From: Natrarchaeobius oligotrophus
Lineage (GTDB): Archaea; Halobacteriota; Halobacteria; Halobacteriales; Natrialbaceae
Assembly: GCF_003841465.1 (NCBI RefSeq)
Contig: NZ_REFZ01000006.1
Coordinates: 1-64,000 of the forward strand
Direction of reading: 5' to 3'
Length of the DNA stretch: 64,000 nt
Numbering within the stretch: position 1 is the stretch's first letter; each line of letters opens with the position of its first letter. Below, one piece after another: positions 7,307 through 60,040 of the stretch. The notes under the pieces were generated by a model, which saw only the letters and a list, made by a program, of their open reading frames with translations, was not told the DNA's origin and did not search any database. Both the position numbers and the translations under genes were made by a program.

Positions 7307-8410
7307 ATGGTCGTTCAAACTGCAGTGGTCGGTGCGGGCACAGTCTCTCGCACCCACCTCTCCGGGATCAGAAAGAATCCGCGAGCGGAACTGATCGGCA
7401 TCTGCGACACGAACGAAAGCGCCGCGAACGAACGGGCGAGGGAGTACGGAACCGTGGCCGTGACGGATCTCGATCGGCTCCTCGAGATGGAGCCCGACGC
7501 CGTCCACGTTTGCACGCCCGTCCAGACGCACTTTGACATCGCGAGCCAGGCGATCGAGAACGGCGTGGCCACGATCCTCGAGAAGCCGGCGACGGTAACC
7601 GTCGAGGAACTCGAAGGGCTCGAAGAGCTGGCCGAGTCCAACGACGTCCCGCTGACGGTCGTCCACAACCACCTCTTTTACCCGTCCGTCCGGCGGGCCC
7701 GCGAGCTGATCGACGCCGGCGAGCTCGGCGAGCTTCGGGGCGTGGACACGATCTTCGCGGGCATCACGCGACCCGACAGCGTCAAGCGCGGCTCGTGGGT
7801 GTTCGAGCTACCGGGCGGCGAGTTCGAGGAGGCGCTTCCCCACCCGATCTACTCGGCGCTCGGCATCAGCGGCTTCCCCGAGAGCAGAGACGACATCTCG
7901 GCACAGACGTCGTGCTCGCGGGAGTACGAGGGCGGGTTCAGCTACGATCAGGCCCAGGTTCAGTACACGACCGCGGACGGGACCCTGTGTACCGTGAAGA
8001 TGCTTTCGGAGACGAAACCGCAGCGACTGCACATCGTCAACGGCTCGGAGCAGTCGCTGATCGTCGACGAGATCAACCAGTCGGTGTACCGCATCGAGGA
8101 CGACTACACCGCCTCGCCCATCGCACGCTCGAAGAAGGGTCTCGACCTCTCGCTGTCGCAGCTCTCGAGCACCGTCGAGAACGCGACGATGATGCTCAGC
8201 TCGCGGATCGACGACGGCTGGGAGCGTGAGACGAAGCTGAACTCCCACTACGCCATCTTCGACCAGTTCGCGGCCGCGGTCGAGACCGGCTCCGACGTGC
8301 CGGTTCCGGTCCAACAGTCGAAGTGGACGATTTGCGCGATGGAAGAGATTCGCGACGCAGCCAGCCGCAACGCGTCCGACCGGGAAGACGTAATCACGAT
8401 CGGTCACTGA
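7307..8410 (+). CDS. Gfo/Idh/MocA family oxidoreductase
   Basis: A 367-residue NAD(P)-dependent sugar or sugar-nucleotide oxidoreductase. The Rossmann loop is AVVGAGTVSRTHLSGI (residues 6-21) and the family motif EKP is at 92-94. The C-terminal half has the usual beta-sheet domain, including VDTIFAGITRPDSVKRGSW. These enzymes make keto-, amino- or uronic-acid-type sugars for surface glycans. Its TGA stop (8408-8410) is also the first triplet of an 86-base hairpin element. The flippase gene lies 213 bases downstream. Confidence 0.88.
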   Translation: MVVQTAVVGAGTVSRTHLSGIRKNPRAELIGICDTNESAANERAREYGTVAVTDLDRLLEMEPDAVHVCTPVQTHFDIASQAIENGVATILEKPATVTVEELEGLEELAESNDVPLTVVHNHLFYPSVRRARELIDAGELGELRGVDTIFAGITRPDSVKRGSWVFELPGGEFEEALPHPIYSALGISGFPESRDDISAQTSCSREYEGGFSYDQAQVQYTTADGTLCTVKMLSETKPQRLHIVNGSEQSLIVDEINQSVYRIEDDYTASPIARSKKGLDLSLSQLSSTVENATMMLSSRIDDGWERETKLNSHYAIFDQFAAAVETGSDVPVPVQQSKWTICAMEEIRDAASRNASDREDVITIGH

Positions 8411-8493
8411 TACGGATTGCTGTGACGAGTTACCGGCGCACCCGCGACCCGGACGGCGGGTGTGCTGGTAATGACTCACAGTAAACCGTATGA
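8408..8493 (+). mobile_element. 86-base hairpin element, copy A, on a stop codon
   Basis: The left end is TGATACGGATTGCTGTGAC and the right end is CACAGTAAACCGTATGA. Everything between the terminal TGA triplets is an imperfect inverted repeat of about 37 bases per arm, with apical stem CGCACCCGC/GCGGGTGTG. TGA occurs in direct, not inverted, orientation at both ends, as a 3-base target duplication would. The left TGA is the stop codon of the upstream oxidoreductase. Copies B (34804) and C (59955) have the same length. Another TGATACGG continues from the right end. A non-autonomous mobile element is inferred; a structured 3' end is the alternative. Confidence 0.65.
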
Positions 8494-8623
8494 TACGGTC
8501 CGCTTTCGGTCACCGCCGGCGCGACCGAGACCCGTCCCCGACCGCGTCGGAACCCGCTGGGGCGGGCCGGACGAGCAAACGCGATGAATCGGGCCGGAAC
8601 CGCCGTCCACTACTCTCACTCGA

Positions 8624-34803: not shown

Positions 34804-34889
34804 TCATACGGTTAACTGCAAGTCATTTCCGGTGCACCCGCGACGCGGGCGACGGGTGCACCGGTACATCGGTACAGTAATCCGTCTCA
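34804..34889 (-). mobile_element. 86-base hairpin element, copy B, on the pyrC stop codon
   Basis: Read on the minus strand, the left end is TGAGACGGATTACTGTACC and the right end is CAGTTAACCGTATGA. The direct TGA triplets lie at both ends, and the left one is the pyrC stop (34889-34887). The apical stem is CCGGTGCACCC/GGGTGCACCGG. Length is exactly 86, as in copies A and C. The arm ATACGGTT.ACTG..AGTCATT.CCGG is very close to the right arm of copy A, so the copies are related, not chance palindromes. Confidence 0.65.
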
Positions 34890-37688: not shown

Positions 37689-38042
37689 ATGATCGACAGC
37701 CTCATTGTGTTCGCCGTCAGCCTGCTGATCGGTGCACTCGGCATCTACGCGGGCGCGAAAGTGATCGTTGACGCAGAAGACTACACGTACGCGATCATCA
37801 CCGCACTGATCGGCGCGATCGTCTGGGGTCTCGTCGGGTTCTTTTTCGGGTGGATCCCGCTTCTCGGACCGCTGCTGGTCTTCGTCGCCTACCTCGCCGT
37901 GATCAACGCACGCTACCCCGGCGGATGGGTGGACGCGGCCGCGATCACGATCGTCGCATGGCTGTCGGTGCTCGTCGTCCTGTACGTGCTCGCGTTCCTC
38001 GGTGTGACCGGGTTCGACGCCGTCGGCGTTCCCGGCGTCTGA
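37689..38042 (+). CDS. Small haloarchaeal membrane protein
   Basis: A 117-residue protein with four hydrophobic helices and very short loops (IVFAVSLLIGALGIYAGAKVIV, YTYAIITALIGAIVWGLVGFFF, LGPLLVFVAYLAVI, AAAITIVAWLSVLVVLYVLAFL). No catalytic motif is seen. Function is unknown. Its TGA stop begins a degenerate hairpin element (38040). Confidence 0.7.
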   Translation: MIDSLIVFAVSLLIGALGIYAGAKVIVDAEDYTYAIITALIGAIVWGLVGFFFGWIPLLGPLLVFVAYLAVINARYPGGWVDAAAITIVAWLSVLVVLYVLAFLGVTGFDAVGVPGV

Positions 38043-38123
38043 TACGGACCGTTACACGTCATTATCGGTGTCGCCGCTGGTTAGCCGTGGTTGCACCGCT
38101 CGTCGGTACAACAGACCGCACGA
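38040..38123 (+). mobile_element. Degenerate hairpin element, copy E
   Basis: It starts TGATACGGACCGTTACACGTC exactly on the stop codon of the small membrane protein. It ends GTCGGTACAACAGACCGCACGA, aligning with copy B's ATCGGTACAGTAATCCGTCTCA. The inner stem CGGTG..CACCG survives. Length is 84 against 86 for the intact copies. Confidence 0.4.
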
Positions 38124-50503: not shown

Positions 50504-51267
50504 CGGTCCGGATCGGCGTCACCGGCGCGACCGGTCGCATGGGACGGGAAGTGATCGCCGCTGCGGACGCACACACGGACTGCGACGTCGTCTTCGCGGT
50601 CAACCGGAGTCCGGACGACGAGACGGTCGCCGGCCGCGAGGTCGAAGCCGCCTCGGCGTTCGACTCGCTGCTTTCGGCCCGCGAGCCGGCCGTCGTCGTC
50701 GACTTCACGGGACCGGCGTCGGCCCTCGAGTACGCACGCGGCTGCGCCGAGGCGGGCGTCGCCTTCGTCACGGGAACGACCGGCTTCGCGGACGACGACC
50801 TCGCAGTTCTCGACGCCGCGAGCGAGGACGCGCCGATTCTCCGGGCGCCGAACTTCGCCCGCGGCGTCCAGGCGCTCGTCAACGTCGTCGGCGAGGCCGT
50901 CCGGAACCTGCCGGGGTACGACGTCGAACTCGTCGAGACCCACCACAACGGCAAACGCGACGCGCCAAGCGGGACGGCAAAGCGCCTGCTCGAGGAGATC
51001 GAAGCCAACGGCGACTTCGCGGGACGGACGCACGGTCGCGAGGGCGAGACACCACGCGAAGCCGGCGAGATCGGCGTCCACGCGCTCCGAGCAGGCGACG
51101 TGACGGGCGAACACGAGATCGTCATCGCCGGCAACCACGAGGAGGTTCGACTGACCCACCGCGCCGAGGACCGCGGCGTCTTCGCCGCGGGCGCGGTCGA
51201 CGCGGCCGTCTGGCTCGCGGGACGCGATCCCGGCCGGTACGAGTTCGCCGACGTCATCGCCGACTGA
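50500..51267 (+). CDS. dapB: 4-hydroxy-tetrahydrodipicolinate reductase
   Basis: ATG 50500 gives 255 residues, overlapping dapA. The NAD(P) site is VTGATGRMGREVI (7-19), and the signature is ELVETHHNGKRDAPSGTAKRL, with the catalytic His pair and Lys. GVQALVNVVGEAV and the GNHEEVRLTHRAEDR ending are typical. It reduces the DapA product. Its TGA stop starts a degenerate hairpin element, and dapD follows 231 bases later from its own promoter. Confidence 0.93.
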   Translation: MTVRIGVTGATGRMGREVIAAADAHTDCDVVFAVNRSPDDETVAGREVEAASAFDSLLSAREPAVVVDFTGPASALEYARGCAEAGVAFVTGTTGFADDDLAVLDAASEDAPILRAPNFARGVQALVNVVGEAVRNLPGYDVELVETHHNGKRDAPSGTAKRLLEEIEANGDFAGRTHGREGETPREAGEIGVHALRAGDVTGEHEIVIAGNHEEVRLTHRAEDRGVFAAGAVDAAVWLAGRDPGRYEFADVIAD

Positions 51268-51349
51268 GACGGATCGCTGTACCGGTTCGTCGGTTTTTTC
51301 GCGATCGTTCGACGACCGAGCCGGCAGCGACGGATAGCAGTCCGACCGA
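51265..51349 (+). mobile_element. Degenerate hairpin element, copy D, on the dapB stop codon
   Basis: It begins TGAGACGGATCGCTGTACCGG on the dapB stop, matching copy B's left end. The inner stem CCGGTTCGTCG pairs imperfectly with CGACGACCGAGCCGG around a loop with TTTTTTCGCG. The right end GGATAGCAGTCCGACCGA is a worn form of CAGTAATCCGTCTGA. The T-run may make it act as a terminator between dapB and dapD. Confidence 0.45.
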
Positions 51350-58003: not shown

Positions 58004-58179
58004 CGTGGGACACTTTCCAGCGCGGTCCAAAAGCGTGTCGAAACCCGTGCCGGAAGGAGCCACGTGCGTGCATATTCGGGCCCGCCGTTCGCGAAATACC
58101 GCTCGAGAGATACACGAACGTGAATATCGACGGCCTCGAGACCGCAACCACTTTGCCCCTCGCGGGCGGCGACGTATCC

Positions 58180-59820
58180 ATGACGCGAATCGCCGGGATG
58201 GCCGGCAACCGAGGGCGCAACCTGTTGAACATCGCCGACCGAGCGCCGGGCGGTGCCGAACTCGCCGTGGTGCTCGCGACCGACGCGGACGCGCCGGTGC
58301 TCGAGGCCGCCGCAGACCGCGACGTCGCGACCGAGGTCGTCCCGCTCGAAGAGGGGATGAGCCGCCGCGAGCACGAGGAGGCGGTGCTCGAGGCGCTGTC
58401 GGACCACGAGTTCGACCTCGTCTGTCTCGACGGCTACATGCGCATCCTCTCGGATACCTTCCTCGAGCAGGCCCCGACCACGCTGAACGTCCACCCGTCG
58501 CTGTTGCCGTCGTTCCCCGGCATGGACGCCTGGGGCGACGCGCTCGAGGCTGGCGTTTCGGTGACGGGCTGTACGGTCCACGTCGTCACCGACGCGACCG
58601 ACGACGACGGCGAGGTGATCGAGAGCGAGGTCGACGCCGGTCCGATCGTCACCCAGGAGCCGGTTCCGGTCTACGAGGGCGACGACGCCGACTCGCTAAA
58701 AGAGCGGGTCCTCTACGAGGGCGAGTTCCGCGCGTACCCCCGCGCGGTGAAGTGGTTCGCCGAGGGCGCACTCGAGGTGAACGCGGCCGACGGCGAGGTG
58801 ACGGTCGATTCGGACCTTCCGAGCGTCGGCGACGCCGATCACGGCGGCCTCCCGACCCGCCGCCTCGTCTCGAGCGACCGCCTCGACGCGTTGCGCTACG
58901 GCGAGAACCCACACCAGGACGCCGCGGTGTACGCCGATTACACCTGCGACGAAGCCAGCGTCGTCCACGCAGACCAGCTGAACGAGGGTGCGAAGGCCCT
59001 CTCGTACAACAACTACAACGACGCCGACGGCGCGTTGAACCTCATCAAGGAGTTCGACGAGCCCGCTGCAGCCGTGATCAAGCACACGAATCCGGCCGGC
59101 TGTGCGACGGCGGATTCGCTCGAGACGGCCTACGAGAGGGCCCTGTCGACGGATCCCATGAGCGCCTTCGGCGGCATCGTCGCGCTCAACCGCGAGTGTG
59201 ACGCCGAGACCGCCGAGTTGATCACGGACTCGTTCAAGGAGGTCGTCGTCGCGCCCGGCTACGACGACGACGCCCTCGGGGTGCTCTGTGAAAAGGAGAA
59301 CCTGCGCGTGCTCGACGTCGGCGAACTGGGCGAGAGACGGACCGAACGGTTTACCGAGAAACCGCTCGTCGGCGGCCGGCTCGTCCAGGAGCGGGATCTC
59401 CAGTCGATATCGGTCGACGACCTCGAGGTCGTCACCGAACGCGAGCCGACCGAGGAGCAACTCGAGTCGATGGTCTTCGCCTGGCAGACGCTGAAACACG
59501 TCAAATCGAACGGCATCCTCTTTGCCGACGGCACCGAGACGGTCGGCATCGGGATGGGGCAGGTCTCGCGCGTGGACGCGGTTCGGCTCGCGGCGATGAA
59601 AGCCGACGAGCACGCCGAGGGCAAGGACGCCGAGGGCGCGGTGATGGCCTCCGACGCCTTCTTCCCGTTCCCCGACGGCATCGAGGAGGCCGCGAAGGCG
59701 GGCATCGAGGCCGTCGTCCAGCCCGGCGGCTCGGTCAACGACGACGACGTGATCGCGGCGGCCGAGGAACACGGGATGGCGATGGCGCTTACGGGCCAGC
59801 GGTCGTTCAGACACGATTAG
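58180..59820 (+). CDS. purNH: PurN-PurH fusion: GAR transformylase plus AICAR transformylase
   Basis: ATG 58180 gives 546 residues. Residues of about 1-195 are a PurN-type formyltransferase: MTRIAGMAGNRGRNLLNIAD, then LDGYMRILSDTFLEQAPTTLNVHPSLLPSFPG and GCTVHVVTDATDDDGEVIESE. Residues of about 225-546 are the AICAR transformylase half of PurH: RYGENPHQDAAVY, YNNYNDADGALNLI, VIKHTNPAGCA, SAFGGIVALNR and VQPGGSVNDDDVI ... MALTGQRSFRHD. The PurH IMP-cyclohydrolase half is absent, so a PurO-type enzyme must act elsewhere. The last 37 bases recur downstream at 59917. Confidence 0.9.
   Translation: MTRIAGMAGNRGRNLLNIADRAPGGAELAVVLATDADAPVLEAAADRDVATEVVPLEEGMSRREHEEAVLEALSDHEFDLVCLDGYMRILSDTFLEQAPTTLNVHPSLLPSFPGMDAWGDALEAGVSVTGCTVHVVTDATDDDGEVIESEVDAGPIVTQEPVPVYEGDDADSLKERVLYEGEFRAYPRAVKWFAEGALEVNAADGEVTVDSDLPSVGDADHGGLPTRRLVSSDRLDALRYGENPHQDAAVYADYTCDEASVVHADQLNEGAKALSYNNYNDADGALNLIKEFDEPAAAVIKHTNPAGCATADSLETAYERALSTDPMSAFGGIVALNRECDAETAELITDSFKEVVVAPGYDDDALGVLCEKENLRVLDVGELGERRTERFTEKPLVGGRLVQERDLQSISVDDLEVVTEREPTEEQLESMVFAWQTLKHVKSNGILFADGTETVGIGMGQVSRVDAVRLAAMKADEHAEGKDAEGAVMASDAFFPFPDGIEEAAKAGIEAVVQPGGSVNDDDVIAAAEEHGMAMALTGQRSFRHD
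59780..59816 (+). repeat. 37-base direct repeat, copy 1 (purNH 3' end)
   Basis: This copy runs from the codons of MALTG to the HD codons, with the gene stopping at TAG just after. It is identical over 37 bases to 59917-59953. It could be an integration (att-like) site. Confidence 0.7.
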
Positions 59821-59916: not shown

Positions 59917-59953
59917 CGATGGCGCTTACGGGCCAGCGGTCGTTCAGACACGA
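59917..59953 (+). repeat. 37-base direct repeat, copy 2
   Basis: Exactly the same as 59780-59816 and 137 bases downstream. Here the coding end reads RHD followed by TGA, where the hairpin begins, as at other genes with this element. This copy may be the older 3' end of purNH. Confidence 0.7.
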
Positions 59954-59954
59954 C

Positions 59955-60040
59955 TGATACGGTTTACTGTCCGTCAGTACCGGAGCGACCGTGGGACGGA
60001 ACCCGGTCGCTCCGGCACACAGTTACGGTAATCCGTCTGA
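59955..60040 (+). mobile_element. 86-base hairpin element, copy C
   Basis: The left end is TGATACGGTTTACTGTCCG and the right end is ACGGTAATCCGTCTGA. TGA is direct at both ends. The stem arms carry CCGGAGCGACCG and CGGTCGCTCCGG, so the apical stem differs from A and B but still pairs. The left TGA closes the reading frame of the second purNH end copy. Length is exactly 86. Confidence 0.65.

Follow-up and report, generated by a model that had tools for sequence, protein, structure and literature searches.

The hairpin at positions 59955-60040 of the window, by which we mean the whole 64,000-nt stretch of DNA analyzed here, raises the question of why the two sides of its inner stem have changed together. 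The inverted repeat has arms of 33 nt (59959-59991 and 60004-60036) that are 76% complementary and enclose a loop of 12 nt. The RNA fold of 59955-60040 reaches -43.7 kcal/mol (z -4.1), a stability attained by one of 200 dinucleotide shuffles, and a search of the window with Rfam 15 at the gathering score gave 0 matches to known structured RNAs. In an earlier note, this hairpin (copy C) was compared with copy A (8408-8493, minus strand) and copy B (34804-34889, plus strand), and was taken to reflect either an RNA/DNA hairpin under selection or an invasion by distinct members of the family. The inner arms quoted there for copy C, GGAGCGACCG and CGGTCGCTCC, are found in the sequence, and the stems of copies A and B are as quoted. 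The outer arms are indeed alike and the inner arms have changed together: at alignment pair 30-57 copy C has A-T where most copies have C-G, and at pair 33-54 it has G-C where most have A-T. Because 6 of 98 distinct aligned copies have both of these C-type pairs, copy C is a member of a small subfamily and not a one-off.

Copy C, recognized by its sequence, inverted repeat and fold, consists of an 80-nt element on the plus strand (59958-60037) between two copies of TGA, the left (59955-59957) and right (60038-60040) sides of a 3-bp target duplication, of which the left doubles as the stop codon of a residual purH 3' end. Within it, the left inner arm CCGGAGCGACCG (59980-59991), part of the covarying helix, faces the right inner arm CGGTCGCTCCGG (60004-60015). 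Copy C belongs to a large dispersed family of 80-nt imperfect palindromes, TACGG...CCGTA, which lie between direct 3-base repeats. A covariance model built from 40 copies found the family at no fewer than 75 places in the source genome, at least (150 scored rows over both strands, all with E 0.0021 or less, the E-values of this model R2 being rough), and a DNA search of the same genome gave 44 rows over both strands.

The anatomy of the element was drawn from two alignments, one of 98 distinct copies (from 110 matches in 100 loci, best strand only, with the weakest matches left out) and one of 188 distinct 80-nt copies picked on the outer arms alone. The outer arms, TACGGTTTACTGT and ACAGTAATCCGTA, contain a conserved T.T mismatch and are followed inward by a GTCA/ATCG internal loop, a 13-pair inner helix and an apical loop of about 10 nt, while the foot of the element reads TSA|TACGG. 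The mismatches are conserved, as columns 9/78 and 19-22/65-68 pair in only 4-12% of the 98 copies. RNAalifold returned a wrong, weak fold and was set aside; the complete hairpin has an energy of -38.8 kcal/mol when evaluated on the alignment given to RNAalifold. The length is exactly 80 nt in 188 of 234 distinct arm pairs. A long form of 136-138 nt, enlarged internally by about 57 nt, accounts for 11 of the 234; it was first seen in genome G022 (L151-L155, L161), occurs also at L203, L217, L234, L239 and L295, and is spread over several genera, and several of these copies have flanking 3-mers of their own. The apical segment is present in two mutually inverted orientations (124 normal and 42 inverted among the 188 copies), which look as if the arms recombine or a cruciform flips; 37 apical flips were counted on an arms-only tree versus 2 on the full tree.

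The earlier note had proposed a covariation test on the aligned family, and the inner stem passes it at the level of events, judged by a tree-based permutation null and slid-pair controls, within the approximations of parsimony on short sequences. The tree of 98 copies has 49 same-branch changes of paired columns versus 25.4±4.5 expected (maximum 38 of 1000), the inner helix alone contributing 28 such changes versus 8.5 expected, and 39 compensatory changes versus 2-7 for slid pairs. Because the 98 copies had been found with a structure model, the test was repeated on the 188 copies selected on their outer arms only. Here the inner helix has 25 same-branch paired changes versus 6.3±2.4 expected (maximum 15 of 1000) and 23 compensatory changes versus 0-2 for slid pairs; the outer helix has no excess of same-branch paired changes (12 versus 10.9 expected). 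The inner excess grows to 71 versus 22.1 on the arms-only tree, but this tree is weak and poorly resolved. Among the 188 copies, the inner helix has a substitution rate of 0.0122 on internal and 0.0305 on terminal branches, and the apical loop one of 0.0317 on internal and 0.0521 on terminal branches, with the same direction on the tree of 98 copies. The constraint is stronger on internal branches, so the lineages that spread are those that have best preserved the pairing. Some constraint in place, or error in the tree, may lie behind the slower evolution of the stem on terminal branches, where the inner stem has about 60 breaks versus 16 restorations.

The flanks of the copies show how the family has come to its many sites. 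In a combined set of 205 copies, purged of repeated flanks (the 93-copy and 107-copy sets used below are not independent of each other), the left and right 3-mers are identical in 178, being TGA or TCA in nearly all of these, and are not identical in 27. In the 93-copy set, TGA/TGA or TCA/TCA flanks 82 copies, and both kinds are found with the asymmetric arms in either orientation (25, 19, 18 and 20 copies); the direct 3-mers are independent of orientation. Matched flanks other than TSA are one TCG/TCG and one TTA/TTA in the 93-copy set and one TAA/TAA and one TTA/TTA in the 107-copy set. Columns 2 and 85 are identical (C/C in 48 and G/G in 44 of 98 copies) where an extended palindrome would need them complementary, and the flanks are therefore a direct repeat. 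In genome G016 (L077-L083), seven identical 80-mers lie at seven unrelated sites with seven different flanks, as expected from recent movement in a burst. On this sequence evidence, the identical flanking 3-mers and the identical copies at seven sites point to a mobile element that is non-autonomous and duplicates 3 bp of its target.

The copies of the window are variably present in congeneric genomes. G002 has no element at the stop where copy A lies, although the global alignment of this empty site is poor and indicates absence rather than an exact junction. Both copy B and copy C are missing from G001 and G002; in G003, copy B is decayed and copy C is present but truncated. Together with the stronger constraint on internal branches, these absent, truncated or decayed copies suggest that selection probably acts on propagation of the element and not on host RNA. 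Both alternatives of the earlier note are thus supported, since the inner stem covaries as a selected hairpin would, and copy C represents a distinct subfamily of a mobile family.

Many copies begin where a gene ends. With gene ends taken from our own codon-usage gene caller, trained on the 64-kb window, a GFO/IDH/MocA oxidoreductase gene has its stop codon in the TGA at 8408-8410 of copy A, and an amidohydrolase gene on the reverse strand has its TGA stop in the TCA at 34887-34889 of copy B. Two faint, decayed copies also start at TGA stops: copy D (38040-38123, plus strand, E 0.0079) at that of a predicted 117-aa gene, for which no Pfam match was found, and copy E (51265-51349, minus strand, E 0.0015) at that of a DapB-like gene. 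Side-by-side copies with a common 3-mer occur as well, as at copy A, whose decayed tandem neighbor (8491-8576, plus strand) has the intervening TGA in common with it; other copies likewise adjoin old element ends, hinting that element ends are favored targets. In the source genome, 25 of 44 copies start exactly at the TGA of a predicted gene. Among annotated plasmid records, which are independent of our gene caller, a CDS ends exactly at the element in three of four, namely an archease CDS in Natrinema thermotolerans, a VOC protein CDS in Natribaculum luteum and a PHP protein CDS in Halomontanus rarus, but not in Natronococcus sp. CG52.

For the whole set, 164 of the 205 copies were testable, after removal of the 27 without identical 3-mers and of a further 14 that have other 3-mers, lie inside predicted genes or are without a usable gene on both sides. 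Of these, 90 start exactly at the stop codon of a gene, and only 14 lie between divergent genes. The target flanks resemble a palindromic GAC|TSA|GTC, which includes the ends of genes closing with Asp and a stop, and this accounts for most of the excess of starts at stop codons. A flat null over intergenic TGA/TCA predicts 48.8 such starts, and a null weighted by the flank preference learned from non-stop insertions predicts 74.6±3.5 (maximum 89 of 50,000), which leaves only a small excess; strict targeting of stop codons was therefore rejected. Since flank preference alone lifts the expectation so far, the stop-codon excess is mostly, not wholly, a by-product of DNA target preference, and selection for harmless sites could supply the modest remainder.

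The best overall explanation, and one that we hold to be likely, is that copy C belongs to a MITE-like family of haloarchaeal non-autonomous mobile elements. A transposase supplied in trans, probably of the DDE type, would recognize the ends and cut with a 3-bp stagger at TSA. A 3-bp duplication and a symmetric target argue for double-strand staggered insertion by a DDE-type enzyme, and some IS5-group elements duplicate TNA. At a gene end of the form GAC-TGA, the duplication would keep the stop of the gene intact and place another TGA at the far side of the element, and for this reason the insertion would be almost harmless. The folded inner stem may then aid propagation, as a cruciform or hairpin during replication or synapsis, and the copy would decay once inserted. 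Such a part of the hairpin in movement is suggested by the branch constraint, the covariation and the apical orientations. A classical MITE, however, needs neither a covarying inner stem nor a fixed length, so insertion by a DDE enzyme leaves the hairpin unexplained. It is conceivable, though doubtful, that the family stands for a class of mobile elements in which a covarying hairpin required for movement is combined with a staggered 3-bp duplication that rebuilds the host stop, in which an undescribed haloarchaeal enzyme moves the element, and in which the duplication target is a palindrome coinciding with Asp-stop gene ends, so joining two features so far known apart.

In the loci examined for an autonomous partner, no arm pair with matching 3-mers was found at a distance of 160-6000 nt. 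Matching ends were found at none of 30 PF01609 loci (30 of 85 matches, in 5 genomes), at none of 30 PF13358 loci (30 of 44 matches, in 6 genomes) and not at the one PF00665 locus, and the neighbors of the copies include no recurring gene and no recurring transposase-like family. The family is filed as MITE-like only, because in the sampled transposase families and genomes no parent transposon with the same ends was found.

The matched changes in the stem might owe themselves to mutation and not to selection, if template switching in a quasi-palindrome or recombination between the arms copied one arm onto the other. Template switching gives whole-pair changes in one step, and the two apical orientations mean that the arms may interact; yet copying of this kind would be expected to remove the conserved T.T mismatch and the GTCA/ATCG internal loop as well, both of which persist in most copies, and one-sided breaks are common, so that we consider this origin unlikely. 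It is quite improbable that the copies are RNA 3' elements kept by the host just after stop codons for mRNA ends, stability or attenuation. The starts at stop codons, the scarcity of copies between divergent genes and the covarying stems would speak for such a role. Without an insertion, however, there would be no direct 3-mer repeats at the two ends, and most of the stop excess follows from DNA target preference. The orientation of the element relative to TGA is nearly even (45 same and 37 opposite in the 93-copy set) despite the asymmetric hairpin, congeners have no copy or only a truncated or decayed one at the three sites tested, and inner-stem breaks exceed restorations on terminal branches. 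The earlier note had not seen the direct repeats of 3 bp, the junction with stop codons or the wide occurrence in Halobacteriales; these make propagation rather than host RNA function the likely reason for the pairing.

Movement of the folded hairpin as a single strand by an HUH/Y1 enzyme, as in REP/RAYT or IS200/IS605-derived PATEs, would turn the flanking TGA into cleavage sites and dispense with a staggered-cut duplication. Such a route would suit the fixed length, the constrained hairpin with its conserved mismatches (columns 9/78 and 19-22/65-68) and the failure to find a DDE partner in the loci examined, but it seems rather unlikely, as both 3-mers vary together (TCG/TCG, TTA/TTA, TAA/TAA), the element lies in either orientation, and Haloquadratum PATEs are reported without target duplications in the available part of their description (PMC3119063).

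The MITE-like reading can be set against the systems already known. Prokaryotic MITEs are described in the available text of a review as short, non-coding elements with terminal inverted repeats, target duplications and many copies, moved in trans (PMC10969869). The present family resembles them in its shortness, terminal inverted repeats, lack of coding capacity, high copy number and target duplication (178 of 205 copies), and differs in its constrained, covarying central hairpin, its nearly fixed length of 80 nt and the lack of an identified parent transposon. The nearest described elements, as far as the accessible text goes, are the MITEs, PATEs and SMRs of Haloquadratum (PMC3119063). There, SMR-A is reported as an element of about 110 bp with inverted ends, many copies and no related transposon, all points of likeness within the haloarchaea, which inserts into PATEs and IS605 elements without target duplication; the present family has a 3-bp duplication, prefers GAC-TSA-GTC and often lies at stop codons. 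Haloarchaeal PATEs, according to the same portion of that source, have neither terminal inverted repeats nor target duplications (PMC3119063). Like PATEs and IS200/IS605 elements, the present elements are palindromic, small and haloarchaeal, but their ends are the palindrome itself and duplications are present. REPs, in the part of the paper at hand, are 20-40 bp long with a GTAG or CGTC tag (PMC3733652). The likeness to REP/RAYT systems lies in extragenic palindromes of high copy number, sometimes in tandem; the present elements differ in their 80 bp, their direct repeats on both sides, the absence of a recurring neighbor gene among those seen, and a hairpin foot of TSA|TACGG in place of the tag. 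The portions seen of the MITE review (PMC10969869) and the REP paper (PMC3733652) do not describe the family, and no description was found in the literature searched, in which most subscription papers were missing.

The family sets hairpins just after many haloarchaeal stop codons, and its copies complicate the annotation of 3' ends and RNA structures in haloarchaea. As a clear system it invites two questions, what makes some tiny elements retain their folded stem and by what means an element reaches a harmless site, and the burst in G016 is the best place to look for the mobilizing enzyme.

The surroundings of copy C record a further event. The purH-type gene (58120-59820, plus strand), with formyl transferase and AICARFT/IMPCHase domains, ends in a TAG at 59820, and its last 37 nt (59780-59816) recur 137 nt downstream (59917-59953, plus strand), where the second copy continues into the TGA stop abutting the element. 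In G003, an element with a right inner arm equal to that of copy C lies exactly at the purH stop with its 3' side cut off; in G001 and G002 no element was found at this stop. The duplicated end and the abutting TGA suggest that the 3' end of purH was replaced by recombination, and the second copy is probably the original end. Copy C would have inserted at the former purH stop when the G003 lineage had not yet split off, and later recombination upstream would have given purH a new TAG-ended 3' end, leaving the old one beside the element. The 100-nt spacer beside purH has its best match (76% over 68 nt) in L064, where no purH match was found.

Relatives of the element are present in 98 of 293 Halobacteriales genomes, 44 of 63 in family f1 and 54 of 230 elsewhere; in a smaller sample, 21 of 41 genomes were positive (19 of 25 in family f1), often with dozens of copies. 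Among the matches listed, all 113 loci bear Natrialbaceae genus or family names, and these loci and the plasmid matches hinted at a distribution confined to Natrialbaceae, which was rejected on the positive genomes outside f1. Viral matches were likewise dismissed, as none of their nine loci holds a full element. The matches outside family f1 are weaker, and one such copy was inspected in each of G030 and G031. Both are diverged relatives (L064, 1501-1586, and L066, 1501-1584) with nearly perfect outer arms of different sequence, and the one at L064 is flanked by TCA on both sides.
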